From Cymbomonas tetramitiformis (taxonomy: Eukaryota; Chlorophyta; Pyramimonadophyceae; Pyramimonadales; Pyramimonadaceae), in contig LGRX02027129.1 in NCBI GenBank assembly GCA_001247695.2, positions 22,163 through 86,162 of the forward strand: DNA of 64,000 bases. The letters run 5' to 3'. A program made the position numbers and the translations under genes. Positions 15,930-63,150 of the stretch are shown piece by piece; the stretch's first letter is position 1, and every line of letters starts with the position of its first letter. Below the pieces are notes generated by a model. It did no database searches and had not been told where the DNA came from. It saw only the letters and a program-made list of their open reading frames with translations.

Positions 15930-18235
15930 TTTAGTGTAGTACCACGGTGGTTGGGGCAGGATTTACGATATTCTAAATGTAATACTGCGTATGTAAATAT
16001 ATAATATGTAAATTAGTATGTATATGTAATATGTGTTGCCATAGGATCTTATCACCTAGCAGTATACTAGCAGTAGATAGCACCGTAGCTTAATAGAAGT
16101 AAATAGCACCGTATACAGTTCATATCATCTAAATTGATTGATACTCTTGCTCGAACAAACATAATCAATTGCGATAGGACTAACTGAACAAACATATTCA
16201 ATCGATAAGACTTGTCTGAAATCAAAATCAATTGATGCTGTACGCTTGTTTTGAAAATGAGAATCAACTGATTAGGCTTCTCCTTCCAACATCACTATGT
16301 CAACAAGTGCGGTATCGTGCCCATGCCGTGCCCTGATCCAGCGGAGCTTCTACCATTCAGCCAGCAGTCCATTAGAGGTCTCTTTGCCATCTCATCAACG
16401 TGTCTCCCTGCATGAGTTTTTATCACGCATCCCCCTGTCCTCAAACCAGGTCATTTTGTTGCACGCCTGGTCACGTTTCTGTCGTTTCCGCGGAAGATGT
16501 TTTTTTCGCAGGTCCGCCAAACAGAATGTTTCTCTATAAACGCTGAACGCTATCGGTTCCCTTAAAGGGGCAAATGGCGATTTCACAAAAAAAGGAGGAG
16601 AGACGACACGAGATCGTCATCGGAACACTGTCAAGGCTGCGCCAAAATTTTCTGTCGAACATTTTGATCTTAGGGTTGTCGCAAGCCCTTGGAAGATGCG
16701 GCACTCCTCCGTCGGTCGACTGTCTGTCGACCGACCGATCGGACGATTAACCGATTGACAAATCCGTCAAAATTCGGATGCCAATGGATTCGGATGGTTG
16801 GAAATGCGAAACATATATATAATGGAGCAATTTACATTTGCAGCGAGACAGTCAGAAATCGCACAGGCTTGGGGTTTTCAGTCAGAGTAAGCCATCAGGA
16901 ATAGAAATACCGGGGTTTAAGTATCGGTGCAGATTGGCATGTTGCAGATCAAAGTGCCACACCGAGGGTTGACATTGCATACTGCAAAGATACTGACTGC
17001 CACACGTGCCACAGAGTCATCTCCAAGGTTGTCAATCAGGCATACTCAGAATCGGATCAGATCAGATCGGATCATATCAGAATAAGAACAGAATCAGGTA
17101 AACATCAGGTAGATGAGAACGTACGAATAGCCAACCCGTCGTATTTTTTTGGTTGAAATGGCACGTATCGATGCAACCCACGATTTAATCGATAAGTTAT
17201 TAGTATTTGTCGATAAGGGAAAATATTATTCCAGGAGCAAATGTGACTAGTTTCCGGAACAAGTATCTTTAGGTACTTCTTTTGGATAAACATTGATTTT
17301 CCCTGGAGCAAGTTTTACTTGTTCCGTAAATAAGTTAAAGAAATACTATTTATACGCAGCGAAAAAGTGTTCATAAAGGACGATTTTTGTTGTTGTTGTT
17401 TATTGCTAAAAAATATCATTTCGCAAATCCAACCGCTAGATATGTCCATTGTGGTCAGATGTTAATAGCTACCGGTTGAATTTACATAACAATATTCATC
17501 ACATGCAATATTATGAAGTGTTAAGTCGTGAACATGGCCTTCCTACACACTGCAGTTTATTAAAAGTATTTGCCTACGCGCAGACTAGCATTAACTCATT
17601 TGTCTACGCGCAGACTACGATATTCGGCATTTGCCTATGCGCATACTCGATGTACTAGGGTACATCACGAGTCAGTACAAAAGAGACAGACGTGTCAGAG
17701 TGACGAGTAACAGAAACGATGCCAGTCACCAACCGGAAATTATGACAGTCACCAGCATGACCGAATGACAGAGGTGACTGGCAGAATTAACAAAGGTGAC
17801 CGACAGAAGTGACTGACTCAAATGTGACATTTGAATATCTGCACCTACAGCAGGTCAGACTTGAGAGAATTGGTGGGAAACCATTTAGGATTCGATCGGT
17901 CGAACATAACTGGAGGGAATCGAGGAGGACCTCAGTTATACAGTCACATCAGCAAATCTATGAGTATTCAAATTAGAGACTTGGGAGGTGACAGTCAGAG
18001 ATATTTAAGTACTGATGACAGATCCCAGCTGATTGGTTGTTGCAGTCAGCAAATGACTGAACACATGAAGTGACATGGTAAGGACGAGTTACCTTAAGTA
18101 GAGAGTTGTGCAAGCTCTCGGGGTTGAGTTTAAATTTGTTGTACGTTGCAGCCACCTCTGTGGCTGCTAAGTAACTTGACCAAAAGCGCAATTAAAAAAA
18201 AATACCGAATCCGATAACACCCCTGTGATCTTAGT
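15930..18235. other. No gene recognised; AT-rich intergenic DNA
   Basis: No domain-bearing frame on either strand. Includes three ~30-bp repeats of atttgcctacgcgcagacta (17569-17650) and a gtgac/cagtcac-rich patch at 17690-17830. Confidence 0.5.
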
Positions 18236-18245
18236 ATTACATCGG

Positions 18246-18835
18246 AGATGCTTTCCATGCATTTCCTGTAAATGTCTGCTTACACCGGAGTGAGCCTTGT
18301 CTAGTCTCACCCCCGAACACTCGACTTAACCCAAGAAATAAACTCGTCTTTTCGCCAAAACTGATCGCACACCTTATACTTCGGGGACGCGTAAAATATG
18401 TACATCTGAGAAATATTTCTGCCCGGATGGGTGCGCTATAACGCACGGTAACCTCTGGAAACCTTTGACTGTTTTGGGTTTGGGTTATTAATTCAAACCC
18501 AGACCCATAAATCTGTCATAGAAATAAACTCTTCGTTTCGCCCACAACTCATCTCAGTGCTTGTACTTCTAGAAAGTAAATGATATATATATTATCAATA
18601 TTCCTTCAAGGTCTCGGGCGTTAGAACGCACGAGAACCTCTGAAACCTTTGGTTGTTTTGGGTCGTGGGTACATTCAAAGTTTTCAAACCCAAACCCTAA
18701 ACGCGTCTCAAAGATCGCCATCCATTTTGCGGATACTTCGCTCCATGTCTTATGCTTTGGAGGGTGCACTCATATTTCGGTTGGAAATATTAGTGCAAAG
18801 TCTCGTGCGCTAGAACGCACGAGAACCCCTACGCA
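18246..18835. repeat. ~187-bp tandem repeat, about three copies
   Basis: The near-palindromic block gtgcgctagaacgcac with following gagaacctctgaaacctttg recurs at 18431, 18616 and 18805 (spacings 185 and 189 bp). Each unit also has 'aaataaactcgtcttttcgcc' and 'caaacccaaaccc' type blocks. Confidence 0.75.
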
Positions 18836-18839
18836 GCTA

Positions 18840-20660
18840 CTAATTTTCATGGCTTGCGTTTGAAAGATACAACGACCTCTCAGTTTAGTTTGCAGTCGCG
18901 ACTGCAAACTGAGCGTGATGCGGCAGCCGGGATTGGCTCATCAATCAAGAGCTCAACATATATGTGTTCGTGTTAGGAATAAATATGTATCAGTCACGAA
19001 CGCTGAAATTTTCTGGTGTAATTCAGTTACTAACAGCGTGGGATAATTCCCTGCAGTCAAGCGGGAAGCACTTATTCTTACATACTTAAGAGCACTTATG
19101 AAAGCACTGCCGTGCGTGCTACCGGACGCCGACCGACAGCGACAGACAGCAACACCGACACCGGCATCGACAGTCACGCCGAAAGATGAGAACACGGCGA
19201 CCCCATCGCGCTTGGAATACTTTGTTAAGTTTTCGTTTCTCTGTGACAAAAACAGAGATATATATGTATGTAATAAATATATATATATATATCACGGTGG
19301 TAACAGAACAAGCACAGGCGGTGGTCCGGTCAAGCTAAACTGAATAAGATAAAATAGTTGAAATGTTTTATCGCAGTGAGCGAAGGTCGGACGGATGTCG
19401 GATGCAGGATGACAAGGTGACAAGGTGACAGGGCCACTCAGGGCGAGGGGTGAACAAAGGAGGGACTGTACCCCCCCATACAGTGGGGGAAATTCAGTAC
19501 TCCCGTGACTCTGATGGCAGGCGATGCCATGTTGGCATGTCGCAGGTCAGGTAGATCTTCATAAAAAAATCCCGAATCCGACTGTCGGAAAACGATCTAT
19601 CACATGTCGTAAAAACGATGCCATCCTGTAATCGATCAGTACTGGGCACTTTCTAGCGCCGCCTGTTTTTAAGCGGGGTCAGAATCTAATGGTCGTTTGT
19701 CACATGCCGAGAAGCTATTCCCAAATAATTGTAAGTCGTTATATTCCCCGGGTGACTACTTTTCTATGCAAACCCCTCGAGTCCGCCATTCGACTAAAAT
19801 ATGAGATACGAGATTCACTACCCACCCCGGCTTAGTGCTACGACATGTGCACCCGACCCTGGAGACCCCAAAGCGGACGATACCGCTGCTGTGGCGACCT
19901 CCAGGAAATATTTTCGAGATCAACAGGCTTTGGTCGAGGAAATACAGAAAGATGTGCGACATCGAGCTAGGAGGAAGGCCCTGCGTGCGTGAGACCGTCT
20001 TGGGCGGTAAGGGCGTACGGTACGCTTCACCGCCACCAAGGACGTAGACAAACGAACTCGGGCGATTCGTTGTCAATTTGAAGCAGTAGGGCTACGTTGG
20101 GAGGGCTACGTTGGGAGGGCTATGTACGGTCGAGAGGACTACGTTGGTTGGGAGGGCATCTGCCAGGATCGCACAGACCAGTCGAACCAGGACCCCCGGA
20201 GATTGGGCTCGAGGGCGAGCCCACGCAGCCCATACAAGAAGACATGGGCGGACCCCATGTGGAACTACACTTCAGCGTACCGCGCCAGAGGTGCGGTGGA
20301 CTTCGTCGTGGAAAGGACTCAGGAGAGCAAGGGGGCGGCCGGCACAAAGGCTGAGCAAGTCAGCAGGCCGGTGAACAAGCCGTTCAGGATCCCAAAACTG
20401 AGCGATACAGTCAGGCTTACCCAGTTGGCGGTTATCATCGCAGAGCAGTAATCTCAGCGACAGCCTTTCGGAGACGTGCACCAGGACGAGCTTTGCATGA
20501 CGTGGCGCAAGAGTAAGTATACCTGTGAGCTTTGAGATGGGGGACATGCATCGAGTGATAAACCGAGCCAGGTCCTGCATCTGGGAGGAAACTGCGGTGG
20601 AGTTACACATGCAGTCGTGATGCATATGCAAGTTGGTCAGAGTACCTAAACCCGCGGGAG
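18840..20660. other. No gene recognised
   Basis: A frame at 19801-19992 resembles a short helical stretch of the 848-codon Gag at 7911-10457 (both have a Val-Glu/Asp-Glu-Ile core followed by a basic helix), but the match is too short to call. A 19400-19490 patch resembles 6920-6975 (ggcgaggggtga, then a run of c, a short insert and a run of g). Confidence 0.35.
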
Positions 20661-20669
20661 CGATTGAGC

Positions 20670-20818
20670 CTGGTGAAGGAGTACCATGAGAGGACAAGCC
20701 ACTGGGGGCTCAGGCGTACGCTGCACTTGGAAGCCCATCGGCGCATTGGTGATATGCCATGAAGGATGACTGTTACAAGGTGGTCAAACAGTGCGCCATA
20801 TGTGGAAGGTTGGAGACC
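20670..20818 (+). pseudogene. Relic of a retroviral-type integrase zinc-binding domain
   Basis: Translation gives LVKEYHERTSHWGLRRTLHL, then after a one-base shift MKDDCYKVVKQCAICGRLET. This reproduces the H-x-H ... C-x2-C order and the 'WPGM' position of the integrase H2C2 domain. A stop and frameshift lie in between, and no catalytic core follows, so it is a decayed fragment. Confidence 0.5.
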
Positions 20819-21189
20819 AGTTATACTCGCACGTTCACGCTCTCCCGGAAGGGGCTAGGGGGAGTCGGTCAGGGGATGGAGAGAGGGGTCCCCACTGCGC
20901 CTCCCCCAAAACTGCCTCCCCCCAAAACTGCCTCCCCCCGGTCTATACCCACCTTCCCTTTCCTCCGCCTTCCATATCTTCCTTCCTTGCTACGTCTTCC
21001 ATGCCCCCTTCAGTTCCGAATTCACGGATTGTAAGCACCATTCATGTTTGCATCGGGTCTTATACCCGGTTGATATGGCAGATGAAAACCACATCGGACT
21101 TGACTGGATCCCTTATAAGACTCTGGAAATCATTTAAACAACTAGCCCTCCTTCGGGGGGAGGGGGTTTCGCCCCCTCCACGACGTGTC

Positions 21190-21480
21190 TGAACAGATCG
21201 ATTCGCGATGTTCGATCTGAAATCGAAAATACGAAATGCAAAATCTAAAATCGAACATGGATCGGGAATCGAATATGCAAAATCTGGAAATCTGAACGAA
21301 TCGAACATGGATCGGAAATCGAAAATGCAAAATGCAAAATCTGGAAATCTCAAATAATTATTATCAGATTAATGTCATAGAAAATGAAGTAGAAATGCAG
21401 AATCGAAAATTGGGAATGTAGAATCGACAAATCGAAGATGAAAATTCTGAAAATTCTGAAAATTCTGAGCGTACGTTGCT
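21190..21480. repeat. Low-complexity aatcgaaaatgcaaaa repeats
   Basis: Degenerate short-period repeats of (ga)aatcgaaaatgcaaaatct, ending in a (tgaaaattc)n run at about 21440-21468. Confidence 0.8.
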
Positions 21481-21659
21481 GCTCCCATAGGTCACGCGTG
21501 TTCTCGAAATTATCGATATAAATATAACTTCGATACAACATAAGTGAAAATAGGTGAGGAGGGTATGCAAAAATGGAATGACGAACGATCGGGGGTGTCA
21601 ATCTAAAAGGGGACCCCCCGAGGGGCTACGTCCCCCTTGTGCCCTTCCAATCGCACGAT

Positions 21660-21975
21660 TTGATACGATGCGATGCGATGCGATGCGATGCGATGCGACG
21701 CGACTCGACTCGACGCGATGCTACGCGTTGCGACGCGACTCGACGCGATGCGACGCGATTAAATCGAAATAGCGCGGGGGTGTCTCGGGGGTGCGCGCGG
21801 GGTGGCGGAGGGTCTCGATCCGTCCGATGAGACTAACGGAGTCACGCTTTTGATGGTGTTTGCGTTAATATGATGAGACGGACGGTCGGACGGACACTTT
21901 CGATGCTGTTCGGCTTTATATGCGATGCTGATGCGATGGTTGATGCGACGCGACGCGACGCGATGCGATGTGACG
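21660..21975. repeat. gatgc pentanucleotide microsatellites
   Basis: Perfect (gatgc)n at 21666-21698 grading into gacgc/gactc variants to 21770, and a second shorter tract at 21930-21975. Confidence 0.9.
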
Positions 21976-22042
21976 CGAATTAAATCGAAATAGCGCGGGG
22001 GTGTCTCGGGGGTGCGCGTGGGGTTAGCGGAGGGGTCTCGAT
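21758..22042. repeat. Direct repeat with G-rich core (two copies, ~218 bp apart)
   Basis: Copy 1 is 21758-21822 and copy 2 is 21977-22042, both running ttaaatcgaaatagcgcggg to tctcgatc. Both keep four G-runs (G5, G5, G4, G3-4) and each follows a gatgc/gacgc tract, so they are units of one compound repeat. Confidence 0.8.
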
Positions 22043-22413
22043 CTGAATCCGATTCAGATCGATCTGAATCGAACCTTGATTGATCAAGATCAACGGGTCC
22101 GATCTTGATACGATGGGACGGACCAACGGACGGACGCTTTTGACGGTGTTTGCGTTATTATTAAACAAAAAGTAGGCACGCACTTCCCGGAATTTGCAAA
22201 CCGAAACTTCCCGTATTCGAGATACACAGATTTTCTTGTCACAAATGAATTTCCTTAAATCGGAGCACACGGCGACTACTAATTGAACTAGCATACTACT
22301 AAGCATCCTTTCAGTCATCAAAATTCGATACACAGGCAGTTGGCACGTCAAGCCCAGAGGACTAGAGTTCGCTGGGCTTCAACATTAGACACAATAAATC
22401 TCAATCAGTCCAC

Positions 22414-22419
22414 TTTATT
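22414..22419 (-). promoter_or_regulatory. Candidate polyadenylation signal for the fusion PKS gene
   Basis: AATAAA on the minus strand, about 460 bp past the stop codon. Other AT-rich candidates exist (e.g. near 22586), so assignment is tentative. Confidence 0.25.
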
Positions 22420-22878
22420 GATCCCACTTACATTGATGGTTCATTAATCTTGCTCCTCCCGAATGCAATTCAGAATGATCATCTGATCCACACAGTTCAT
22501 ACAACTAATGGCACCAACTGTAGGTGGCCCATAAAACATTGATAAATATGTAAAAATACAGGAGTGTAGTGCAGCTCAGCACATTTATTTGTAACTGCTA
22601 AGCTACATTCATGTTCAATTTGAGATGTAAGGTTTTATGTGAACGTCACAACAATATGCTGTGCTTAATACTTAACAGAGCACCACAGCAATTAATCCTT
22701 TTCCCCTTCTGGTCTTGTACCTCCACTTTCCAGAGCTCTTTCAGCATTGCTGCTGCCTGCTTTTAGATGCTTTCATCAACTTTTGCACCGCACCGCAGTA
22801 TATCATTAAAAAGGTTTTGCGACTCTCTAGAGCAGTCCAATAAAAAGGCAGGTTCCCTTCTGTCCTGGCATAGACTCC

Positions 22879-25800
22879 TCAAACGGTTTGCAGCTCTGTA
22901 GGTGGTGGAAGCATGTCAGCATTTGCTCGCCACAAGGCACATTCCATTCCTGCGCCGGGGCCCATGGTCACAAAGACACCATAGTCGCCCCTCTTGACTG
23001 TGCTCTCTTTCTGTAACCTCTCAAACGCTAAGAGGAAGGCACCAGATGACACGTTACCGTAGTCCCTCAAAGTAGAAACTGTGTGACGAACATCATGTTT
23101 TGTGATGCCGACTGAATACACCATTGAGTCCAGCACTTTTTTACCACCACTGTGAACCACCCAGTGCGTGATGTCCTTCTTGGTCATGCCAAATCGATCA
23201 AACAACTTGTTCAGCATGAGTGGCATGTGTTCACCGATGGCATATGGCACATCAGATGTCAAGAAGAAGCTAAACTTGGTTGTGATCTCATCCCACTCCA
23301 AGTAGAGGGTATCCAAAGATTTGGGGATGATGTAGCTCTCATATCCCAGGACGTTGCAGTTAATGCGCCCGGCAGGAAGAGGCGGCGGAATTCTTCCCAT
23401 ACGAGGCTCTTCATCACATCGCACCACAGCAGCAGTGCATCCATCGCCAAACAAGCTATTGGTGACAGCAATAGACATTTGTTGGGTGGGGTCCACATTA
23501 TGCTGCCAAACATACTCTGCGGAGCAGATTTCAATGGAGCACATGACAGCGTTTTGACCAGGATTTGCAAGAGCCCAGTTGCTGGCAGCCTGCAGAATGT
23601 TCAATCCAGCATGACATCCCATTCCTACAATATCTGCGCGCTGGATGTGTGGGCTCAGGCCCATGCATTCCACCAGGTGGCAACTCAATGTAGGAATGAG
23701 GAAACCGGTGGAAGTTGCAATTGTCAAAAACTTGATGTCTGCACGTGTAATCCCAGCGCGAGCAAGTGCTTGATCAATTGCACGTTCTCCCAGGATCTTT
23801 GCCCAGCGCAGGTGCTTGTCTAGTAGATATTTTTGGGTAACAGCTTCGCCGCTCTGCTCCTTGTCAATGTCGGCAAGGTGACGAGTCACAATGTGTGAAG
23901 CTGTAAACAGGCTTCGCAATCGTTTGTCATGGATATTCAATAAGTCAGCCACCTCATGCTGTGTGTACTTGAACTCCTCAGGCACTGCTGTGCCGGTTCC
24001 AACAATGGAAGGCATGGGCCGATGCTTGACCTGCAAATAGTCACAGTGCGGTCAGCTGAAAAGGCAGACATACAAAAAACATCCACCTTAGGAGTGCTGA
24101 GAGCTTTGTCAAAGCACTGTCAAGCCTTAAGGAGGCATATGACTTGGAATTCAAAAGTATCAAAGATGACAACCCTTGATTCAACTGTTTTATACAAAGA
24201 CGTAATCAACCGTGAATGTGAATTTCATCAATGGAACTCACCTGGTAAAGCACACCTTCACTGATACGCTCCAGCAGCAAGTTGCCGTCACTTGTTCCAC
24301 TGCCGAAGTCAATCACCTTCTTAGCGAGCTCCAGTGCGATTGCCGGGCGTTTGAGCATCTTCCCTGCAAGCTCCTTTGCGTAGCCAACAGGATCACTCTC
24401 GGCATAATATTGGGCGACGCCCCAATCAACTGCTCTCTGCGCATTGATGACGTCCCCGCACATGATGATCTGCTTCGCACGTGCACCTCCAGTAAGGGCC
24501 GTGAGCCGTGTGCAGCCTCCAGCGGACGGGATGAGGCCGAGAGCGGTCTCTGGGAAGAAGCACTTGCATCCCTTCCCAACGACACGGACGTCGCACGCAA
24601 GGGCCCATTCCAGTCCACCACCACAGGCAGCTCCTTCGATCACAGCGATGGAAACAAATCCAGCCTGCATGACACAGTTGGGCTTACGTGAGAATGGCAC
24701 AACAACATCTCATGCATGCAGTGAGTGGGGAGTAACTGTAAACGTCGTAGCACAGAAATGATGAGAGCAATACCTGAGCAAGCTTATCAAATACTGCCTG
24801 CGACTCAAGATGAAGAGCATCTGCAGCAGATGGGTTTGAAATGCGCTCTTTGTCCGCTCCAGCACAGAAAAACCGCGGATCTGAGGATTTGATGATCACG
24901 ACTCGTGCCGTTTCCTCCAACTTGACGATCAACTCGGACAAGCGAGCAAGCATCTTTCCGTCATATGCGTTAGCCTGTCACCACAAGCTCTTCAACCATA
25001 AAGACCGTGGGATAGCAGTGACCAGACTCACCAGTAATACGACCCTTGCTCTGGGCACGTCGCAACACATGTTTGCTTACTCAAAATTTGTACAAAGTAC
25101 AAAGACTAGCAGTACCTTGTTTGCTCGGTTGATGGTGAGCGTGGCCACAGGACCGTCAACCTCGAAAATCAGGGTGGAATCATCCAGCTTTTCAGAGCTG
25201 TACCCAGCCGCTGCCGCATCGGCGTAGATGGTGGTCAAGTTCTTCGGCCAGTCTCCCTGTGGCATCTCGCGGAGACGTTGCCTAATAATACCAGCGGACT
25301 TGAAACCTTTCACAGTCTCCTTGATGCAGTCAGCCTTCGCCAACTCCACCAAGGCCTCTTTCGAAGCCAACTGCAAGAGCAAAGGAAATACGTAAAGGTC
25401 CTGGTGCTTTTTCCTGACAAGGGTCAAATGTAATACAGGTCGTTGCAGGTGCAAGGCAGATTTTAACATATGAAAACAACACTTTGGTCTCTCATCTCGA
25501 GGCAATAAGGATCTAAGCGAGCAGGAAACTTTTGCAAAGCTGGTCAGGAAGCCTCCAGGATGATGTAAGACTAGCCGCAAGTGCAAACGGACATATACAC
25601 ACACCTTGGCGGAGGCAAAGTTGTATGCGAGGATGCCGTCAGTATCCAGAGATTTGCCAAGCAAAAGCAGCTCCTGCAGCTTGCCCATACGGACCGAGCG
25701 AACGGCTTCCAAAACCATGGCACTCGGAATTTTGCCCTCTTGCACTTCAGTCACCTGGTGAAGGAGATCGGGTCACATTTTAGGGGCAAAGCATGGGAGC

Positions 25801-28800
25801 AGAAATAACTGGCAAGCAAGGCCCGAAAAGAAATGCACACATCACATCTGTATATAAATACACATACATATATATACATGAGGAAGTACATGTATATTCG
25901 CTTGCACACACACAGCGGTCAAACAGAATAACAACAGGCCACTGCTGGTGGGCATACCTGCAGTTCGGTTCCATCCAGCACGCAAGGCGTGGAGCAGGCG
26001 AGGGCAATCGCAAGCCCGTTGCCGTTGACCTTGCCGTGCAACAACATATACGTTGGCACGTTGAGTTGGAAAATCCACAAAAGGAACTCATCCCACATGT
26101 CCATCAGCTCCTCATCAGCGTCTTCGGGGAACTCCAAGTCACACCCGCCACTGTGTCCAAGGAAGCACAGAGCATTCGCCGCCAGGTTGGAAGTCTCTTC
26201 CTTCAACTCCTGAGGACCACAAGATGACCTGTCAGCGTCTAAGTAGCAAATACAAACAACATATTTTGCAGCTCCGTGAGATCAGCGTGGTCCTCCTTCT
26301 CCTCTAAGGTTTTGTCTTATGGGAGTGCTCGAGTGACGACTAGATGTTTCATGGTTGCACCCCTCCCCTTTTGCTCCTTGTTGGAATCGCGAAACGAGGA
26401 AGACGAAAACTGTACCTTGAGCAAAGCCTTCGTGATGACAGGCTGGAGCAAAGTTACAGCCAACACGCCGGACTTGTAGGCAATATCCACGAGGCTTCCA
26501 CCCTCTGCTGGGACTGGCGCTTTTCCGGAAATCCCGAGCTTGGTTCGGACTTTCTTGCACATCTTTATCAGACTAGCGAAGTCCAGGCTCCACAGTTCGT
26601 CCAGTAGACGACGCGTGTCCAGCAGCGCGGCGGTATTCATAGAGCCAACCAGCGCGTTTACCTGCAAGGTAGTTGCCTCTCCCGTCATATCTGTCCTACG
26701 GATGACAGAAACCTTTGTTCTACGCAGTGGTGCTATTGAGACAATGAAGAGCTAGCTAAGTATCACGTTGCTGTGAGGGCGGCATTGGGCACACCTCATC
26801 CACTTTCAGATTTTGGGTGAACCCGATATCCGATAGCTTCGAAGAGGATGTGGAGGACATGAGCATAGTGTTGGCGTTCATAGGGGAAACATGCTTGCTC
26901 AACTGGAAGGTCATCACGCCGGGAAGCGTATGACGTGTTGGGAAAGAAGTGACCACTTCGCCCGCTGAGATACGGAAGTCGCAGGCGATTGAAAGCTGGA
27001 GAGCTTCTGTACTCGGGGAACCCGGGCCCTGGAGCACGGCCATGGTCACCATAGGCAGAGCCTGAATGAAATCCACAACGCGCTCCCAACGCAGAAACCA
27101 CTGGATTACGGCGCGCTGTTTCTCTTGATGCGTGAGGCCGCCGTTAGACATGGAATCGATTAGCTCTGAGGGCACCAGGATGTTCTCCATCGCCATCTCG
27201 GTGGGAGCGATGCCCTGCAGAATATGACATCCGACCCTCCGTTAAGTGACTGGAGAACGTAACTTGGCAGCCATACAAAAAACTGAAAAGAAAAAACATA
27301 ATACCAGGCCTACAAGCAAAAACCCCGGCTCCGCATCTGGCAATAACCCTGACCGTCACCTTCATGAGCAAGCGGGCCTATGCTGCGAGACGATCACAAC
27401 TGAACAAGAGCAATAGTGAAAAATTGCGACAGGCTCAAGGCAAATTCAGCTATTTTTGTAGGCTCGTGGTGCAAAGAAAAGGACCCAGTGGGAGACGTCG
27501 GCATTCAAAGGAGCTTTCAAAAGATCGCATGGGCGCACACGTGCTCGGGTCAGCAGAGACGGTTAAAGCGTGCAAGTACATAGCACTGCTCTCAAGCAAA
27601 AGCGAAGAGACTGTAGCTCACCGGCATGTAAATCGCAGCGAGCTTGGGAAGCGCGCTGCACACCCAAGAAACAAAGCCAAAACTAAGCGACTCGACACAG
27701 CCTGCGCAGGCTCGAGAAGGTGGTGAAACAAGTCCTTCGACGCAAATAGTAACTTTCTTCAAGCGTTCCTTCCGTCTCACAACTACGTAAGCTAAGAAGG
27801 ATCGTCAAACACGGTTACAGGCCAAGTTGAGGAGGCGGGTGTAGTGTGCTCAGAATATTATGTTTACGGTATGTTGTCTTAACGGAACAAAACAGTCGCC
27901 TGTCCCAAAGACACACGCTCCCTGTCCTAAACAAAGCGTGGGGAGGGGCCAACCAACCTGCCGGCGTCCTTAATCGCCGTGAGCATATGGTCGAAGCCTC
28001 CGAGGAGTTCGCGGGAAGGAACATCACGGATATGGGGGGCAAGATTGATCTCGAGGATTTTCCCTGGAGTGATCTTGATTGCGTCTTCCACACTCAAAAT
28101 TGTGCGTGGCACGGTAACGTTATCCCAGGAGGTCGCGTGTTGCACGCACAAAGCGTTACACGCTGCGGCATGACCCTTCAGCTCAATCCTCTCGACAATG
28201 CAGCACCCGTGCACGAGACGGCGTTGCAGTCCCAAGACTTGTGCCTTGGGAATCACCAGATCCTGTTTACAACAGAGGCCTTGTTTGAGTCGCGAACATA
28301 GACAAACAAGACTTGAAGATACAACTTTCTACAGCTTTTCGTTGCTCAACTTTATACGTTTCTCTTTTGCTTAAAGCATATTCAGCGCCAAGTAGCTCTA
28401 ACGTTAGTGGCCTGTGCGTAACCTGACCTTTATGAATTCAGTCGTCGCGGTGGAGAGGTCGCCTTTAATTTCCGCAAAGAACCCCGAGCTTTTCATTTCC
28501 TCAAACTCCATGCAGGAAACGTATCCCAGGGCCTTTTGAGCAAGCACCAGCCCGACGTGCATGGAAAGAGGGGACATCGAGCACAGAGGTACGACTCCAG
28601 AGCCACCAAATCTGAGTATGCACGAAGGAAAGCCTGGTCAATGTCTTTTAACTAGACACGGAGCGGGTTCAGAGTAGCATTCAACTTTGTTGTGTATGTA
28701 CACACATGTTGCTAGCGCATAACTTTAAGCGTCGGCTGTGTGTGCAGCAGCTAGGGATCAAAGGAATGCGGAAACTGACGGCAAGTAGTGCAGCACTCAC

Positions 28801-29769
28801 ACCAAAGCTATTTGAAGAGGTCAGGGCGAAGCTGCGTTGCGAGTGTATTACTGATACAATATCCCTATGAAAAGCATAAATATCACGCTGAGATATTAAT
28901 CTACGGGCACTACAGTCGTTCTTTGCTTTTCTCGCCTCGTGAATCGGTAAGTCGGCGGCACCTGACCGAGACAAACCTCAACACGGCCAGGCGACCAAAA
29001 GAAATCCTTACCCGCAGAACCGCGTCGAATAGACAGTGAATATCAAGTCAAAATAGAGTATTCGGTTGTTAAAAAAACGGTATAACTTTTTGCGGTGTTG
29101 CGCAGGGTTACACAAGAAGATGCTGCTTGAAGCTGACTTGTGGAAGAGCTGGTGCAGCACGCGCAAGTGACGGGCTGCAAACCTACCTGGCAGTGAACTT
29201 GGCAGCTGGTGTAGCAAGACGGTAGTCAGAGGAAAGACCCATGGCGAGACCCAACTGAGTGCGCAAAATCAGTTACTTTCGTCAGTGACCGCGCGAACGG
29301 CAAGGCATGCGCTGATTAACATCGTCAGCGTGCTGTGAACGATAAAGCATGGGTATCACAAATCCTGTAAAAGAAAACGTAGGTTTTATGTGCAGGAACT
29401 TTTCCTGAGGACACGCTTCTCCTGAGTGCAAGTGACTGAACGCATGTATCAGTAGAAATGTACCTCGTGAAACTCTCCATCAAAGCAAGTGACGAACAGT
29501 AGGCGAATTTCTCTGAGCTGCCCGACCAATTTTTCCCAGCGAGCCAAAAGTCCCTCCTCGGACTGAAGCAATTCGTCTCCCAGTCCAAACAGGGGCACAT
29601 CCGGGGAAACGCTTTTGATAAGCAAAGTTGTCACTTGTTCGCCTTGAGCTTTTGCGATATCTGGAACCTTCCGGACCACAGAGGACAAGCAAGCCACTGC
29701 TTCAGAGAAAGTATTCAGCTTTGGGATGATACATATCACTTGAGCTCCCTCGTGAAACACATTCGCCAT
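22879..29769 (-). CDS. Four crotonase domains fused to a DpgA-type type III polyketide synthase
   Basis: Exons, 5' to 3' (high to low): 29769-29464, 29254-29187, 28831-28803, 28594-28428, 28262-27958, 27655-27622, 27214-26795, 26661-26416, 26209-25958, 25754-25605, 25370-25116, 24974-24774, 24664-24242, 24030-22879. All introns are GT-AG with compatible phases; only the exon 3/4 junction is doubtful. The start is ATG in ACCATGG at 29769. The product is ~1335 residues. Crotonase folds lie at about 1-200, 205-470, 515-700 and 720-950. Only the fourth keeps the oxyanion loop FFCAGADKE and both catalytic Glu (830 in CGGGLEW, 850 in FPETALG). Residues 953-1335 are a complete type III PKS with Cys1091 (VGMGCHAGLN), His1245 (VVHSGGKKV), Asn1278 (YGNVSSG) and GPGAG. 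The motifs CSAEY and NSLFGDG match DpgA, which condenses malonyl-CoA to 3,5-dihydroxyphenylacetyl-CoA with crotonases DpgB/DpgD. A similar one-chain aromatic polyketide synthase is inferred; the product is unknown. Confidence 0.88.
27622..27655 (-). other. 34-nt microexon of the crotonase-PKS gene
   Basis: Bounded by ggtgtgcag| and |gtgagc. Its length shifts phase 2 to phase 0, exactly what is needed to connect the flanking exons, and it encodes ALPKLAAIYMP. Confidence 0.75.
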
Positions 29770-30860
29770 GGTACTAAGACTTGTCAAGAACCCTGGGTCG
29801 GGGGAAGCTTGAAATTTAGCGCTGGCGAGGTCTACAAAGGCAATAGAGCATCATGCGAGCGGTTACGAAAGCTTGCAGCGAGTGAACACTTCCAGTTTCG
29901 TCATCTAGCATACGTCATCTTGCCGTATGTATTACTAACCGTCGATTCACATGCTTTATTTGATCCCTTGTGATTCCTTACATTACTGCAGCTTTCTCAT
30001 GGAGCATATCGACCACGTCAAATGCGATCGTGGCGTACATCTAACAGTTGAGGACTTAGCGCTTCGATTTTATAACAGTTCTTTTAGGTTTACGTTTCTC
30101 ATTCTCTGAACTCCGATGCCATACGACGATTGCTCCACGTATGAAAATTCATACAGGTGGCAGGCAAAAGTCGAGGCTGCTCATATCGAACAGTTGTCAA
30201 ACAGAGTTCGGACGCGAGTTGTGTTGAGGAGTTGAGCCCGGAATGTTTGGTCTCTTATGTAGAGTTATGTAGCTCTAGCGAATCAAAAATGGCCACCACT
30301 GCGGCACCACGAGAACATAAATCTCTCAATCTGCTCTGTGCCCTGTGTCAGCCGCTCATGTTTGACTTGAGGTTGCGTTTACGTTTTCTGGCTCCTTCGC
30401 TTGGTTGGCCAATAGCAATACACTATTAGAATTACATACTATGCAGTCCAGTGGACACCGTGGACACTCTCACAAGTCAGAGCCTCCGGACGCGGCGATT
30501 TTCTCCCGAATTTATCGATTTTTTATTTTATGTGGTGTCCGGAGGGAAGGAGTTACGAGCTTTCCATTGCTTTCTGTCGAGAATCGCGCGATCGGCCGCG
30601 CAGCGGCCGAAGCTCGTAACCTGAATGCTGAAACCTCTGGCTTGCAAGAGAGAAGCAGTGAGGAGTGACACCGCACCGTATCATTGCATTCCGTTTCCGA
30701 TTCTCGATTTATAGGCCGCAACCCCATTTTGCATTTTGATACCGGAGAGCTCTTCGGTATAAAAATAGTAGCGGTGCTGCGGTAGCCGAGTATCGCTGTA
30801 TCGTAACATTACGTATTCAATAAAATACCAGAGGCTTTTGAAACATCATCATCAATAGAG
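29770..30860. other. Upstream region of the crotonase-PKS gene; no other gene
   Basis: Presumably holds its promoter. An inverted pair gttacgagctt (about 30551) / aagctcgtaac (about 30610) with gcggccg between is visible. No coding domain recognised. Confidence 0.4.
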
Positions 30861-30864
30861 CTAT

Positions 30865-31400
30865 GATCGGGATATGACCGATGACATATGTGTCATACAT
30901 GTCATACGTGTCATACATGTCATGTCATATCATATCATGTCATGTCATGTCATGTCATGTCATATGTTATAATGACATACAGTCGTCGAGTATTGTCAAT
31001 ACGGTCGACTATGGCATGTACAGTCATAATATCTATCATCCACTCACCATGAGTGACATTTGTCATCGAGAGGCCGAGTACGGCAGCTCGATGATGAAGC
31101 AAGACAAGTTCTTGAAGAACAAACTGTTCTGAGAGGACGCGTCTTCGCTTCGACGAGCATGAATTGAACAACATGCGGGTATCAACAGGCTAATTCGACC
31201 AACCGATATTGTTAGTTCACCCAATGCCCTCGGGTTCACAACCCGATGGTGGTAACGCTTATGAAGCGTGAGGGCATCGGGTATATGAGGAGCATTGCGC
31301 TCAAGCAGACTACTGGACACCAGAGACTGCACTCATTCCCCACCAAATATTGATGCGCGTTGCTACAGTTCAATAGCAGCCGCATAGTCTGAAAGGTTGG
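30865..31400 (-). repeat. Inverted fragment of the ~1.5-kb LTR-like repeat
   Basis: Reverse-complement similarity to 37850-38330 and 40890-41390: a (tgtcatacatgtcatg)n tract, then caatgccctcgggttcacaacccgatggtgg, matching ccgcaatcgggttgtgaaccc...ggcattgg in the other orientation. Confidence 0.65.
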
Positions 31401-31856
31401 ATATCAACCTTGACAGTGGTTATTCTCCGTCCACGCGACGAACGAGGACATACAAGTGTGTGCAACAGTAGATATATTGTATATAGATTGTCGTACTGTG
31501 TGTGTGACAGGTTCGCGCATACATACCGGCGACAGCGCTCGCACATATACGATCATCTACAAGCGAATAATAGCATTCGTTGCAATATCGTCAGCAAACG
31601 GAGTGCGCGAGGAATCATCATCGCGAACGCATTCGCAACTGATAGCATTCGTCGCACTAACATCGTCAGCAAATAATCAGCGACAAGGTGTGCGCACTGC
31701 GTACGGATCGCACATACATGTTGTCACCATTTCGCAGGGTTGGTACGATATGCGACATACGGACGCGCGACGAAAAATCATCATCAATATGTGTGATTCG
31801 CATCAGCTTCGGCAGGACGCACGGAGTTTTGTTATACGCGCGATGGCATTCATATA

Positions 31857-32195
31857 CAGTAATACCTCACCTTTAAGAGAATCGACGATAAGAGACCAGC
31901 CAGCGGTTTTTTTCTTTTTTTTTGGGGGGGGTCGCGTTTTTTACGATGACCCTGAGCCTTTTCAAATCGTTAAGAGAATGGGTCCAAATAAGAGAACGGG
32001 AGCTGGCTAGATGAGGAAATATGGTTGGGAAACCATGTTAAACCATGTATTAAATATGGTATGGTCGCAAATAAGGAACAAACCTGGCTATCGCTGACCT
32101 TATTGGATCGCGCTTCGTTAAGCGCCGCTGGCGTGTTGGGGGGGGGAGGGGTTCACTTTTTTTCCGATGAGGCTGGCTGACCGCATATCCCTGTT
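31857..32195 (+). mobile_element. Possible mariner/pogo-like terminal repeat and element fragment
   Basis: After a TA dinucleotide, CAGTAATACCTCACCTTTAAG resembles the end of the MITE at 36072 (CAGTAAACGCTCGATTTTAAG). No matching right end is found before the N gap, so extent is uncertain. Confidence 0.35.
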
Positions 32196-32215
32196 NNNNN
32201 NNNNNNNNNNNNNNN
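32196..32215. other. Assembly gap (20 N)
   Basis: Twenty ambiguous bases. The two sides may not be truly adjacent. Confidence 0.99.
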
Positions 32216-43309: not shown

Positions 43310-46300
43310 TCAGTGTCGCGGAGGCGTAAATGTCGGAAAAGTTGTCGTAGCAGGAGTGCTGGCACGGGATATACACTCGCAGATCGACCTGCTCCAGTCT
43401 GCTGCGGGTGAGGTCCAAGCTGAGCAGTCTCTGGATGAGCACCGGTTGCCCATCTGCACGCACACGGTGTTGAAGTAGTACAGCGTAGCAGGGGCGAGGG
43501 TGGTGCTGAGTTCGTCCATATGCAGGTGGGTTTCATGTACTGCGTACCGTACATGCAGTAGGTACACACCAGCGGAGGAGGGAAGCTGGCGCATCATAGG
43601 GCGAAGCCGTAGCGCGTTAGGGAAGCGACCTCTGGGGTTTTCCATGAACCAATGTTTTGGCTCCAGGTAGTCAATGATCTGCAATGCTCGTCGTACGATT
43701 TTGTCAGCCTGGGGAAGGTCAGGGGGTCCACCAGTGGTGCGCGCTTGACTGTACTGCCTGCAGGGGGGACTTGCCCAAACAACATCGAAGAATCCAGGCG
43801 GGTATTGTTTGTAGTCCCATTGCAGGATGTCACACACATGAGTGGGTTGCCAGATATGCCCGGAGTCGAGGGTCACTACTGAAGCGGAGGGGAAGCAATT
43901 TAGGAATTCCCTCTCTACTGAGCCAGTACCGCTGAAAAGTACGAGAATCCTGGGCGTGCGGGTTGTTTTTGCCTGTATTGCCAGCAGCTCTGTCACCAGT
44001 GCCAACGACCCATCTTCCACGCGCTCTTGGTGTTCCCACGGCAGGGGGATATCATCTTCCATCTGTTCGAGCTGGTCCAGTTCATCGCAGGGATTAGTGA
44101 TGAGGTGGGCCAGTGTCATTCCGGCTTGAGCGGAGTGACGGCCACGCTGCTCGCGTCGCCGAGTGGCTTCGTCGCGGACTTGCGCTTCCATGTGCAGTCT
44201 CGCTTGCTCGAATTCACGAAGTTGTTGAAGTGGACTTCCGCGTTCAAGTTTGTCACGCGTCCTCCATTGGTCGTGAGCTTTGGAGTAGCCAGTCCAGCGA
44301 ACCTTCCACTCTTCCACCTCCTTTCCTCGAACAGACCGCACTCGACGTGCAAGAATGCGCTCAACGTGTGCTTCCTTCTGACCGTCCACTACCACCTCTT
44401 CAGGTACTGCTAGGTGATCGCGTGCGGCAAAAGCATCTTGACCGCTGGTGTACGGTTTGAGGCGATGTTGAGCGAACACGTCGTGAATCCGCCAGTGAGG
44501 AGGGAGGCGTAGGCGGTAGGCTACTGGAGCTCCTCTGTCGGCCTCTGGCATGGTCATCTGTACATCGCTGAAGAAGCGTTCGGTCACAGGAACTGGTCCA
44601 TGCCAGCGCTTGGTCAGTTTCCTACAGATGGAGCGATCCATCACCTTCTCCGTAAGGTGTTTCGCCTCTATCCAGACCAGATCTCCAACAGCATACTCCC
44701 GCTGCCCGTGTCTGCGATCAAACTGTTCGCGCTGTCGCTGTTGAGCCAGCTCTAACCGCTGTCTGGCGTCCCGCAGCTGCGACGAAAATTTCACAGCCAC
44801 TTCGTGTGCGGTGCCTACTCCCCCAGTTCGTCGTCCAGCGGTGGACTGTGCGGCCTCCAGGAAAAGGTCCAACTGCGACAGCGGCGAGAACCCGAACACC
44901 AGTTCAAATGGCGTGAAGCCAGTAGATTCACTCCTGGAGTCATTGATCGCGAACTCCACGTTAGTGGTGAACAGATCCCAGTCCTCCACATTGGCGTCTA
45001 CAAAGGACCTGAGCATGTCCTCAATAACCCTGTTGCTGTGTTCCGCCTGGCCGTCAGACCGAGGGTTGTACGGCGTGGTACGAGCCACTTTCACACCCAT
45101 CAGTCTCATGAGTTCCTGCCAGAAAGCATCTTGAAACCGCGGGTCACGATCAGAGACAATCTTCATAGGCGCGCCATGTAAGCGCCATACCGAGTCAAAG
45201 TAGATTCTGGCCACCACAGCTGCGGAGCTGTCGCCGAAGTTCATCGGCACAACGTGGACCATCTTCGTCAGCTTGCAGGTGAAGGCCACGAAAGCATCAT
45301 TGCCTCTCTCTGATACCGGCAGGCCGGTGACGAAGTCCACCGCGACATCCTGCCATGGCCTGTTCGGGATGCTGTGAGGGTTTAGCAACCCATCCGGGTA
45401 AGTTCCCCGCGGCCTCACTGATTGGCACACTGCGCAGGATGCAACCCAGGTGCCCACATCTTCCGCGGCACCACGCCAATAGAAGCGTCGCAGCACCCTC
45501 TCCAGAGTCTTGTCTCGCCCAGTGTGACCCGAGGACAATGACTCATGAGCATGGCGAATCACTACTTCTCGAAGTGGAGAGTCCTCCCCCAGCACCAACT
45601 GATATCTCCCTGCTGCGGTCCTCCAAACCACTTCACCCACTAGCCTGAAGTCCTGTAGGCATTGGTGTGGTGCCGCCTTCACTTTCTCTCTTAGTGAACG
45701 AAGTGTCCCCTCTCGGGTGTACTCCGCTTTCAACGCGCGCAGGAACTTTGAGTCCGACTGCTGGGAGGCTGCGTCTCTGAAGTCTGCCGCCTCACCTGTC
45801 CTTATCACAGCGGGGGCTGTTCGCGGATGCCTCACGCGTGCTGGTTGTGGTTTGGCGGGAGGGGCGTGTACTATCAGAACAGGCCAGCGAAGGTCGAAGG
45901 CTCTCCCATCTGGGTTCTCGAAGAACTGGTTGGGCTCGCCCTTGTCATCGTGAGTAGGGATGACCTCCACAATCTGCATATTGGCCTTTCTGAAAAGTTT
46001 GCGCCACGCGGGGAGCTTGGACTGGTGATCTGGTAGAACGAATACTGCTGAGGTGTTCTCTGGGTCTGCCTTCCATTCTGCGATATACTTGTTCAAGATC
46101 GCCTCCACAGTAATGCACTTGGAGTTGTATGGAGGGTTACACCAAACCCGAAGGCCCCTCCATTTCTCTGAAAGGCAGTCTGTCCAGAATCTATCCGCCT
46201 GTCTGTTGCGGCCGCCAAAGTCACAACAGGCGTCCACATCGAAGGGTCCAAATTTCTCGGCGTACTTCGAGGAGTACTCTGCTCGGACACGCCAATTCTG

Positions 46301-49300
46301 TGAGTCCTCTGGGGGAGCCTGCCGTTTCTGTGGGTGAAGGACCGGGGATGGAGTTGACTGTTGGGGCGCCTGCTGCGGGGTTGGTGAGCTCGTTGGCACC
46401 TTCTCAGTGGGCGCCTCCGATGCGTCAGCTCGTGACGTAGGCGTTCGCGTCTTCGGTGACGCCAACTGCGGAGGCGCTGGGGTCGTAGAGGCCTTCCCAG
46501 CGCGTGACATACTCCTCGTTATCCTTATCTGGGGTGGGGCTCTATCAGGGGGTTTGTGTGGAGCTTCTACCGGCTTCGCGCTATCAGCTGCAGGCCAGGC
46601 AGGCATGTCGAAGTCGAGGTGATCCTCCTCCATTCCCTTATAGAGCTTCGGGTTAACGAGAGCGATGGTCTCCCCCATGTCCATGGCCTGTTCCGCCACG
46701 GAGAGGGTCTCCACTGCTGAGAGCCAACAGTCAACAGTCTGGGCCCAGTGGGGATGAGCTGCGGGTGGTGAGCTGGAGAAGTATTCAGACTCCAGCGTTG
46801 CCAGGGGGTCTTTCGGTAGATCTGAGGTGGGGTCGATCACCCCTGCCTCCTTCAACCCCTCACGCACGTCCTTGTCTTTGAAGTCGGGTCTTCTGGACAG
46901 GGCGTCCGGTACCAGCAGCAGCGCTCCTTTGATGTACTCCATTCTCGGGACTCCCACCTCCACCAGATCCATGTACCAGCGTGCCTGTCTGCGGCTAAGC
47001 TCCCTGCCAGGTTCCATCAGCCATTCAAGGGGGCGGTGATCACCCTGGATGCGGAAGTTGGTGAAGATGAGGTAATGCCGCCAGGTAACGGTGGTACAGT
47101 GGTGTAGAGCACCTAGCTCACGCTCGCCGGTGTGATAATTCTGCTCGGCGGCTGAGAACTGGCGGCTCTCGTATGCTATCACGCGCAGTCCAAGACCATC
47201 TCCATTGTCTTGCATCGGTACTCCCCCAAGAGCGATGCCGCTAGCATCCGTCTGCACCACGAAAGGTGCTGTGCCGTCTGCGGCACCCTTAATGTTGGGC
47301 AAGGCGAGCACTGGCGCTGAGGTGAGGGCCTTCTTCAGCTCCTCGAAGGCCCACTGCTGCATGGGACCCCACTCCCAGGGTACGTCCGACTTGGTCAACC
47401 GGGTGAGGGGCTGAGCGATCTCGGAGAAGCAGTGGATGAACCTGCGGTAATACCCCGCCAGGCCCAAGAACTGCCTGACGTGGGTAACCGTTTCCAGCTC
47501 GGGCCAGTCCCTCACTGCAGCCACCTTGTCGTGTTGGGGTCTGCAGCCATCTGCGGAGATACAGTGGCCAAGGAACCGCAAGGATTTCTTCAACAGTTGG
47601 CACTTGGACCTCTTGAGGAAGACGCCCTTCTCCCTGCATGTCAGGAGCAGTTGCTTGACGTGCTCGTAGTGCTCTGCAGCGGTGTTGCTGAAGACGACCA
47701 CATCATCGATGAAGATCCGGACAAATGGGAGATGGCCCAAGGCCCGCTGCATCCGTCGCTGGTACTGAGACGGTGAATTCTGCAGCCCCTGCGGCATGAC
47801 CAACCACTCATATGACCCCATCTGGGTGGTGAAGGCGGTCTTCTCGACATCTCCTGGTGCCATCGGTACTTGCCAGAAGCCATCCACCGCGTCGAACGAA
47901 GAGAAGAACTTCGCACCCTGCATCTCGTCGAACATCATCTGGATGTCTGGGAGAGGATACTTGTCCTTAACTGTCTGGCGGTTGAGGAGCCGGTAATCGA
48001 TCACCAGTCGCAGCTCCTTGGGGTTCCCCGGTTTGGGGACCATCAGACAGGGAGCTGCATAAGGGCTGGAAGAGGGTCGGATGTAGCCCTTGGACATCAG
48101 AGTCTCCACGCGTTCTCGAAGTTGGCGGAGTTCCTCTGCGGACTTCTTGTAGATGCGCTGGCAGGGAGGCCCCTTCTTGCTCAGCTCAGGGTCCAGGTTA
48201 ATGTTGGCTTCATCTTGGGGGTCATGTCTGAGTCCATCGATGTTCGGTAGGGCAGTCGTCATCTCCTTTTTGTACTCCTCACCCCAGAAGTCCTGAAACT
48301 TGAGGGTCCACTCAGGGCTCACTTCTGCATCTTCAGTATCCGCAGCGGGTTCGGCGTTCTCAGAGTCGATAGCCGTGGCTGCAAAGGCAGAAGCAGTATC
48401 GTCGGGGGACTTCTCGGCCACCATGAGCCAGGCGGGCTGTATCTCCGGGTCGTCATTGCCGCGTAGCTTCTGCGTCTCCGCGTACACCAGGTACTTCTTC
48501 AGCTGGGCAGGGGTTAGGAACACCTCATCCACCAATCCCGCGCAGGCCGTGCCCTTCGGAGACCTGTCCCCAGATGCTTTCCCAGGAGAACAGCCTGTGA
48601 TGGTGACGCGATCCCCAATCTTACCACTGCGGGACTTCCTGAGGAAGGAGACGGAGCCATTCCCTTCATAGCCCAGAGTGACAGGAGAGTGACTGCGCAG
48701 CCACCTTCCGCCGAGGATAACATCCACCTGTATGCCCAGTGGTAGGATCCGGAGGGCAAGGGCGTTCTCCGTATAGGTGCCCGTGGTGGTGTGCGTGTTA
48801 AACTTGGCGTACGCGGTGGCGCCAGTGATCTTCACAGATCCATCCGCCAGGGTGACTCGCATCTCGGAGCCGGCTCGTGTCGTGAGGCCACATCGCTTAG
48901 CGCTCTGCTCCGAGATGAAGTTGTCAGAGGCCCCCGAGTCGATCAGCACCTTGACCGTGTGCCCTCTGAGGGTTGCGTAGAATACCAGCAGTAGCGGTCC
49001 TTCTTCGTCATGTGCCGCTGCAAGGGTACCCTCGATGTCGGTCTTCCACTGAACTCCCCCATCTGTGCGTATGCTTTTGCACTTGAGGTTGGGGAGGAGG
49101 TTGTCCGAGGCCTCGCGGCATTCTTCCAACGTTTGCCTACACGCGGCGTAGAACTCCTCATCCAGCAAATCAACATCTTCAGTCGGATGACTGACGAGGT
49201 TGTCTACACTCGCCGTCAGCAGGGTGCCCGCTGAGGTGCATTCGCTCGAGGTGGGGCTGACATGAGTGGTGTCGCTGGTGGTAGGGCTCACATGGGTGGT

Positions 49301-63031: not shown

Positions 63032-63150
63032 CTGCTGAAACTGTAATGCCAGACTGGAAAGGACTTCTTCTGAGATACTCTCAACCCGGCCACTTGCTTC
63101 AGTGGCATTTTCAGGCTGATTTACCCTCGGGGTGCTCTCAACACTGGTAC

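Follow-up and report, generated by a model that had tools for sequence, protein, structure and literature searches.

The stretch analysed here (the window) comprises 64,000 nucleotides of a contig of the green alga Cymbomonas tetramitiformis (LGRX02027129.1). Its minus strand carries the gene CYMTET_40793, which encodes four crotonase domains (CRT1 to CRT4) followed by a type III polyketide synthase (PKS) of the DpgA clade, all on one chain. In bacteria, DpgA and its helper enzymes are separate proteins, and they build the phenolic ring of vancomycin-type antibiotics. The gene starts with an ATG at position 29769 and its stop codon ends at 22879, exactly as given in an initial annotation of this DNA. 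That annotation also described consistent GT-AG exons, which was correct, and 13 junctions, which was not, since 13 exons are separated by 12 introns. The introns range from 109 to 575 bases, ten in phase 0 and two in phase 2, and the spliced reading frame of 1331 codons has no internal stop; the naive probability of finding all exon codons open by chance is about 10^-28, uncorrected for the choice of exons. The splice model is identical to the deposited hypothetical protein (P0001). According to the available part of the report on the 2023 assembly, gene prediction was done with BRAKER2 on the basis of transcriptome data from Cymbomonas and proteins of other prasinophytes (PMC10675990).

The domain limits were defined with a crotonase profile built on the crotonases that adjoin bacterial dpgA, to which CRT4 and its relatives in the environmental proteins P0002 and P0005 were added as seeds. 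This profile matched the chain at residues 75–205 (18 bits), 333–419 (30 bits), 496–651 (33 bits) and 717–952 (204 bits), and a type III PKS profile matched residues 952–1316 (556 bits). The 204 bits of CRT4 are partly given by construction, because this domain was a seed; CRT1, CRT2 and CRT3 were not. Only the enoyl-CoA hydratase domain (best stretch 729–925, in CRT4) and the chalcone synthase-type PKS exceeded the Pfam cut-off; scanned singly, none of CRT1–3 did so, and these three were found only with the closer profiles. The features of the gene are listed in Table 1.

Table 1. Features of CYMTET_40793, with positions in the window; HMM, hidden Markov model (crotonase profile).
Feature	Residues	Exons	Position	Strand	Description	Evidence
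Whole gene	1331 aa	13 exons, 12 GT-AG introns	22879..29769	-	Four-crotonase and type III PKS fusion	Spliced model; identical deposited protein
CRT1	1-205	1-4	28206..29769	-	Diverged crotonase domain of DpgB/pD-like type, catalytic Glu pair absent	HMM 18 bits; DpgB model 26 bits; tree; residues
CRT2	288-439 (HMM core 333-419)	5-6	26795..27959	-	DpgB/pD-like, Gln372	HMM 30 bits; DpgB model 28 bits
CRT3	486-712	7-10	25200..26523	-	DpgB/pD-like, keeps one catalytic Glu (E608)	HMM 33 bits; tree; residues
CRT4	718-952	10-13	24019..25184	-	Enoyl-CoA hydratase-type, E826 and E846, pU group	HMM 204 bits; Pfam ECH_1; group HMM; tree; residues
Type III PKS	952-1331	13	22882..24021	-	DpgA clade	NCBIfam DpgA 389 bits; trees; residues
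PKS triad codons	C1087; H1241; N1274		23614-23616; 23152-23154; 23053-23055	-		Residues

A database search with the whole protein returned the protein itself and P0002, a metagenomic protein of 1126 residues that is 42% identical to it. When P0002 was used as query, the 120 matches listed of 150 included P0005 and P0123 to P0127, and the other matches among those listed were multidomain crotonase-type proteins that carry no type III PKS domain. P0002 comprises CRT2–4 and the PKS, P0005 and P0123 comprise CRT4 and the PKS, and P0124 has four crotonases, its frame stopping about one third of the way into the PKS; the fusion therefore recurs in these four proteins. P0125 and P0126 contain CRT4 and a partial PKS, and their inserts have the look of translated intron; P0127 contains CRT1–3 and what remains of CRT4. 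The environmental proteins repeat the layout, and three of them (P0002, P0005 and P0123) hold a crotonase and the whole PKS in a single uninterrupted frame, which makes an artefact of annotation unlikely. The Cymbomonas protein, P0124, P0127 and P0002 can be aligned along the chain (alignment A3), where seven of the 12 splice junctions (at residues 102, 287, 521, 605, 740, 807 and 948) are free of gaps over 12 residues on each side against at least one environmental frame; the CRT4/PKS junction (948/949) aligns in this manner to both P0002 and P0124. The splice model, the identical deposited protein and these counterparts bear out the initial claim that four crotonase domains and a type III PKS are fused in one eukaryotic gene. 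Other relatives were recognised by their PKS, such as P0003 (261 residues, 86% identity to the Cymbomonas PKS, 68% covered) and P0008, whose source is 'merc', a catalogue of marine eukaryote metatranscriptomes. Exon 7 (26416-26661, residues 440–521) covers a place between CRT2 and CRT3 where the environmental relatives have about 36 or more added residues; the added stretch holds a conserved core (the FFPDQFIMPTE.WQWK region) that is missing within the Cymbomonas exon.

The PKS scores 389 bits with the NCBIfam equivalog model of DpgA (NF042429), and the next family 59 bits. An ordinary chalcone synthase (CHS)-like enzyme was considered and rejected, since solved-structure type III PKS relatives reach about 108 bits versus 389 for the DpgA model; searched with a profile of the DpgA clade, such structures gave up to 196 bits, and no chain named DpgA was among the 60 matches listed. 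For comparison, 80 dpgA-like loci were taken from bacterial genome contigs (the best 80 of 352 relatives). In a first tree of 93 rows, whose bootstrap was not fully settled and whose four outgroup rows were very long, nine algal and environmental PKS sequences formed one clade (support values 100/100) within DpgA, and the DpgA clade was separated from PKS11, PKS18, Steely1 and 1u0m with 99/97. In a second tree of 38 rows, with 23 of the 80 bacterial sequences and two further Cymbomonas type III PKS domains encoded at other places in its genome, the same nine sequences again grouped together (100/100) and six other type III PKSs stood apart (97/98). Both trees were made with neither plant CHS nor P0123–P0126; within that sampling, the DpgA-like character assigned initially to this PKS is upheld, as is its separation from other type III PKSs, for which a phylogeny had been proposed as the check. 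The full Cys-His-Asn set (C1087, H1241 and N1274) was also read correctly; such a triad is common to type III PKSs at large, and it is intact in the nine sequences of the eukaryotic clade and in all 80 bacterial ones. Among 110 positions that are nearly invariant in the bacteria, 91 are retained.

The bacterial loci supply the groups with which the crotonase domains were compared. The actinobacterial pattern, dpgA followed by dpgB, is present in 52 of the 80 loci, with dpgC called in range in 46 and dpgD in 25. In 26 of the 27 loci of non-actinobacterial type (L040, a cut actinobacterial contig, is outside this number) a crotonase gene designated pD directly follows dpgA, none having been called in L020. 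A second crotonase gene, pU, lies upstream of dpgA on the same strand in nine of the 27; this is a lower bound, because several contigs end before the place of pU. Loci with pU belong to Myxococcota, Pseudomonadota and Bdellovibrionota. In L047, L053 and L069 the end of pU is 15, 59 and 24 bases, respectively, from the mechanically called start of dpgA, and this gene order is the order of CRT4 and PKS on the algal chain.

Scored with HMMs of these groups, CRT4 reached 234 bits with pU, 70 with pD, 69 with DpgD, 38 with DpgB and 34.3 with DpgC; the pU model still includes two strays, L040 and L023, so that nine of the 11 sequences in it belong to the group. For CRT1, CRT2 and CRT3, pD was the top-scoring group (39, 47 and 46 bits), with 32, 33 and 19 bits for DpgB, 17, 31 and 22 bits for pU, and 9 bits or less for DpgC and DpgD (DpgC −2.5, 2.3 and −2.0). 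The CRT1 domains of P0124 and P0127 scored highest with DpgB. With the NCBIfam DpgB model (NF042431), the pieces scanned singly gave 26, 28 and 21 bits; DpgB was the best family for CRT1 and CRT2 and the third by E-value for CRT3, and it was also the best of the NCBIfam families listed for P0127, at 83 bits, below the cut-off of 140.

The crotonase trees were made with 12 of 52 DpgB, 8 of 46 DpgC, 12 of 25 DpgD, 16 of 26 pD and all 11 pU sequences. In the first, as drawn, each CRT domain adjoined its matching environmental domains, and CRT2 also pulled in one long stray row. Three sequences that this tree placed wrongly were left out of the second: gen_P0141 (a long branch), L040_pU (a misfiled actinobacterial DpgB fragment) and L023_pU (encoded on the opposite strand). 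CRT4 grouped with pU (99/95), CRT1–3 with DpgB and pD (97/98), these two not being told apart, and DpgC and DpgD were each separate (100/100). The smallest well-supported sets contained three rows for CRT1 (100/99), four for CRT2 (97/88), four for CRT3 (98/95) and five for CRT4 (100/99). The identity of CRT4 with DpgD (NF042430) is not supported by its scores (69 bits versus 234 for pU) or by the tree, and that of one of CRT1–3 with DpgC is supported neither by the group HMMs nor by the tree; by the same two approaches, none of the four crotonase domains groups with DpgC (NF042432). The correspondence of these crotonases to DpgB, DpgD and DpgC of glycopeptide-producing actinobacteria, as implied in the initial annotation, was thus not sustained.

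The catalytic residues divide the domains in a similar way. Active hydratases have two catalytic glutamates, E144 and E164 in the numbering of rat enoyl-CoA hydratase. Both are present on the Cymbomonas chain in CRT4 only (E826 and E846), and both are kept in the five CRT4 sequences, in nine of 11 pU sequences (the two strays fail), in 12 of 12 DpgD and in the four generic sequences shown. Glutamine occupies the first position in the four eukaryotic CRT2 sequences (Gln372 in Cymbomonas), in 16 of 16 pD and in 8 of 8 DpgC. CRT1 of Cymbomonas has neither glutamate and CRT3 only the second, the environmental CRT3 sequences (n=3) having only the first; no sequence of CRT1–3 has both, in a region where the alignment is loose.

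From these comparisons, the chain can be read as a pU domain, a DpgA domain and, three times, a domain of DpgB/pD type. It is probably a bacterially derived (3,5-dihydroxyphenyl)acetyl-CoA synthase with all its parts on a single polypeptide. In the available text of two reports, DpgA converts four malonyl-CoA into (3,5-dihydroxyphenyl)acetyl-CoA, and DpgB and DpgD increase its efficiency (PMC5132015, PMC8773403), a gain given as 35-fold (PMC8773403). In a similar manner, the algal PKS domain, through C1087, H1241 and N1274, would condense four malonyl-CoA to a tetraketide and then cyclise it. CRT4 would use both its glutamates in cis on the CoA-bound intermediate, promoting dehydration and aromatisation, and would thereby take the place of a separate hydratase-type helper; in bacteria, such steps are assisted by separate crotonases. 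CRT1–3, whose glutamate pair would have been lost, may be built-in, non-catalytic structural activators. The protein would release (3,5-dihydroxyphenyl)acetyl-CoA or the free acid; because no domain groups with DpgC, the chain would end at dihydroxyphenylacetyl-CoA, short of dihydroxyphenylglycine.

Several results weigh against this reading. The PKS misses the curated DpgA cut-off (389 versus 425 bits; bacterial L047 reaches 467); together with its place in the DpgA clade, this marks it as a deep eukaryotic branch. Five of its positions are fixedly different from bacteria, among them H1088 beside the catalytic cysteine: this residue is histidine in 9 of 9 sequences of the eukaryotic clade and in 1 of 80 bacteria, and asparagine in 79 of 80. 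The curated DpgB cut-off of 140 bits is also missed, the whole protein giving 96. Cymbomonas CRT1–3 are just 23–28% identical to their most similar sequences, all of them environmental counterparts, and because of their long branches their placement is less sure. DpgB, pD and pU are not cleanly separated by score, as CRT3 of Cymbomonas gives more with pU (22 bits) than with DpgB (19 bits), and CRT3 of P0127 scores highest with pU (42 bits). Nor do the trees pick a donor for the PKS. The nearest bacterial enzymes are of Myxococcota/Pseudomonadota type, with weak support (84/96 and 80/75), but approximately unbiased (AU) tests did not reject either of two other arrangements: eukaryotes joined to actinobacteria (p 0.43), or all bacteria united to the exclusion of the eukaryotes (p 0.26). 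An actinobacterial donor of the PKS is neither shown nor excluded by these tests.

The five fixed differences mean that product specificity may have changed, and they lead to the strongest alternative, in which a DpgA-clade fusion with an altered starter, chain length or cyclisation makes a pyrone, a resorcinol or another phenolic, on which CRT4 acts as hydratase or dehydratase. The long branch to the eukaryotic PKS clade (1.31 changes per column), the missed DpgA cut-off and the lack of a domain that groups with DpgC agree with it, whereas the triad, the 91 retained positions and the fusion in cis of kin of the two crotonases that partner dpgA in Myxococcota-type loci speak against it; a different product is a serious but rather unlikely explanation. 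A reduced catalytic capacity of the PKS, with the protein serving instead as a scaffold or as a lipid or fatty-acid enzyme, is improbable: the catalytic pair is missing in three of the four crotonase domains, but the PKS triad is intact in 9 of 9 clade sequences aligned and the glutamates of CRT4 in 5 of 5. A merger by annotation of two adjacent genes, with crotonase chain and PKS on separate transcripts and a possible internal methionine at residue 954 as start, would fit the coincidence of the CRT4/PKS boundary with the exon 12/13 junction, and is the least credible of the three in view of the environmental proteins predicted as single chains and the gap-free junction 948/949.

Regarding the origin of the single-chain synthase, a Myxococcota-type gene set (pU-dpgA-pD) would have been transferred to a eukaryote, the fusion would predate the split of the Cymbomonas and environmental lineages, and the DpgB/pD-type domain would have been triplicated. 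Bacterial transfer followed by fusion and intron gain, as suggested initially, is supported as probable. Cymbomonas itself is a bacteria-eating marine green alga. Bacterial contamination of the assembly was considered and is countered by the 12 spliceosomal-type introns and by long retroelement-like frames in the flanks. The Cymbomonas assembly (851.7 Mb in 25,745 contigs, designated G000, with the contig of the window as C18094) was also searched, only the best candidates being scored. Outside the exons of the gene the matches were only crotonases and type III PKSs with 24–35% identity, so no second copy of the gene is seen among them.

Compared with the DpgA/DpgB/DpgD system of glycopeptide-producing actinobacteria (also found in the Ken and Vem clusters), the algal chain has a PKS of the same clade, helpers of the crotonase fold and, in CRT1–3, kin of DpgB. 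In contrast, the bacterial enzymes are separate proteins, the chain has no counterpart of DpgD or DpgC and no dioxygenase step, and its scores fall below the curated cut-offs. The Myxococcota/Pseudomonadota-type loci (L047, L053 and L069) have the same three ingredients, the pU-dpgA order found in the chain, and likewise no dpgC called among their crotonases; they differ in being separate bacterial genes with a single pD, and no name or function for them was met in the literature searched. In five such loci (L009, L018, L047, L053 and L069) a third gene follows pD; its product has 225–310 residues by mechanical starts and a C-terminal end near 'FYGK[ED]M...LDL', and three copies scanned gave no clear Pfam family. 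A divergent gene of arginyl-tRNA-protein transferase type lies near pU in L009 and L047. Three loci titled as Klebsiella pneumoniae or Bifidobacterium breve metagenome-assembled genomes (L016, L023 and L052) fall among environmental Pseudomonadota/Myxococcota, and their titles are probably wrong.

Another eukaryotic fusion with a terminal type III PKS is found in the Steely type I/III hybrid PKSs of Dictyostelium, but the PKS of Steely1 (PDB 2h84) is outside the DpgA clade. Its partner domains are those of a type I fatty acid synthase/PKS, not crotonases. Elsewhere in the Cymbomonas assembly (C25413, approx. 18142-32211; L089-L090), an open frame of 4875 residues has 12 chalcone-synthase-like matches listed and consists of near-identical units of 791 residues with two domains each, and acyl-carrier-like repeats occur in a neighbouring frame; this is either a tandem array of type III PKSs within a single chain or an assembly expanded by repeats. 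Within the window, the gene is flanked on both sides by simple repeats (21670-22000 and 30880-30980; GATGC/GCGAC-like and TCATG-like). Two minus-strand frames, at 43310-49729 (2139 residues) and 60914-63259 (781 residues), have the appearance of Ty3/gypsy-type retroelement polyproteins, as judged by eye. Several of the longest frames of the window resemble retroelements on such inspection. Four of the longest frames gave no Pfam family, and no biosynthetic neighbours were seen among the longest frames, a look that genes with short exons would escape.

In accord with the initial annotation, to which no such architecture was known, no description of a DpgA-crotonase fusion or of an algal DpgA was met in the literature searched, a scope that left out most subscription papers and all bioRxiv preprints. 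Cymbomonas appears in a table of a review of algal natural-product genes whose main text, in the part available, contains neither 'crotonase' nor 'enoyl-CoA hydratase' (PMC7073580), and the terms polyketide, chalcone and crotonase do not occur in the available text of the 2015 Cymbomonas genome paper (PMC5741210). In the tree of a study of cyanobacterial type III PKSs, as far as its available text describes it, DpgA-like enzymes are in an actinobacterial clade, and eukaryotic type III PKSs are mostly in another, for which a common ancestor was inferred (PMC8086630). The Cymbomonas fusion breaks the pattern reported there.

The chances are evenly poised that this is a new PKS architecture, in which a eukaryotic type III PKS would have its accessory enzymes in cis, one crotonase being active and three being catalytically retired and structural, acquired independently of the plant, fungal and algal clade, present in several planktonic lineages and possibly making an aromatic product new to algae. 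In this gene, a bacterial pathway of several genes appears to have been turned into one eukaryotic polypeptide, and its sequence points to a phenolic product that, within the literature searched, is unreported from such algae. Crotonase helpers of both kinds, catalytic and non-catalytic, occur together on the chain, which also offers a testable route to the role of DpgB-type helpers.

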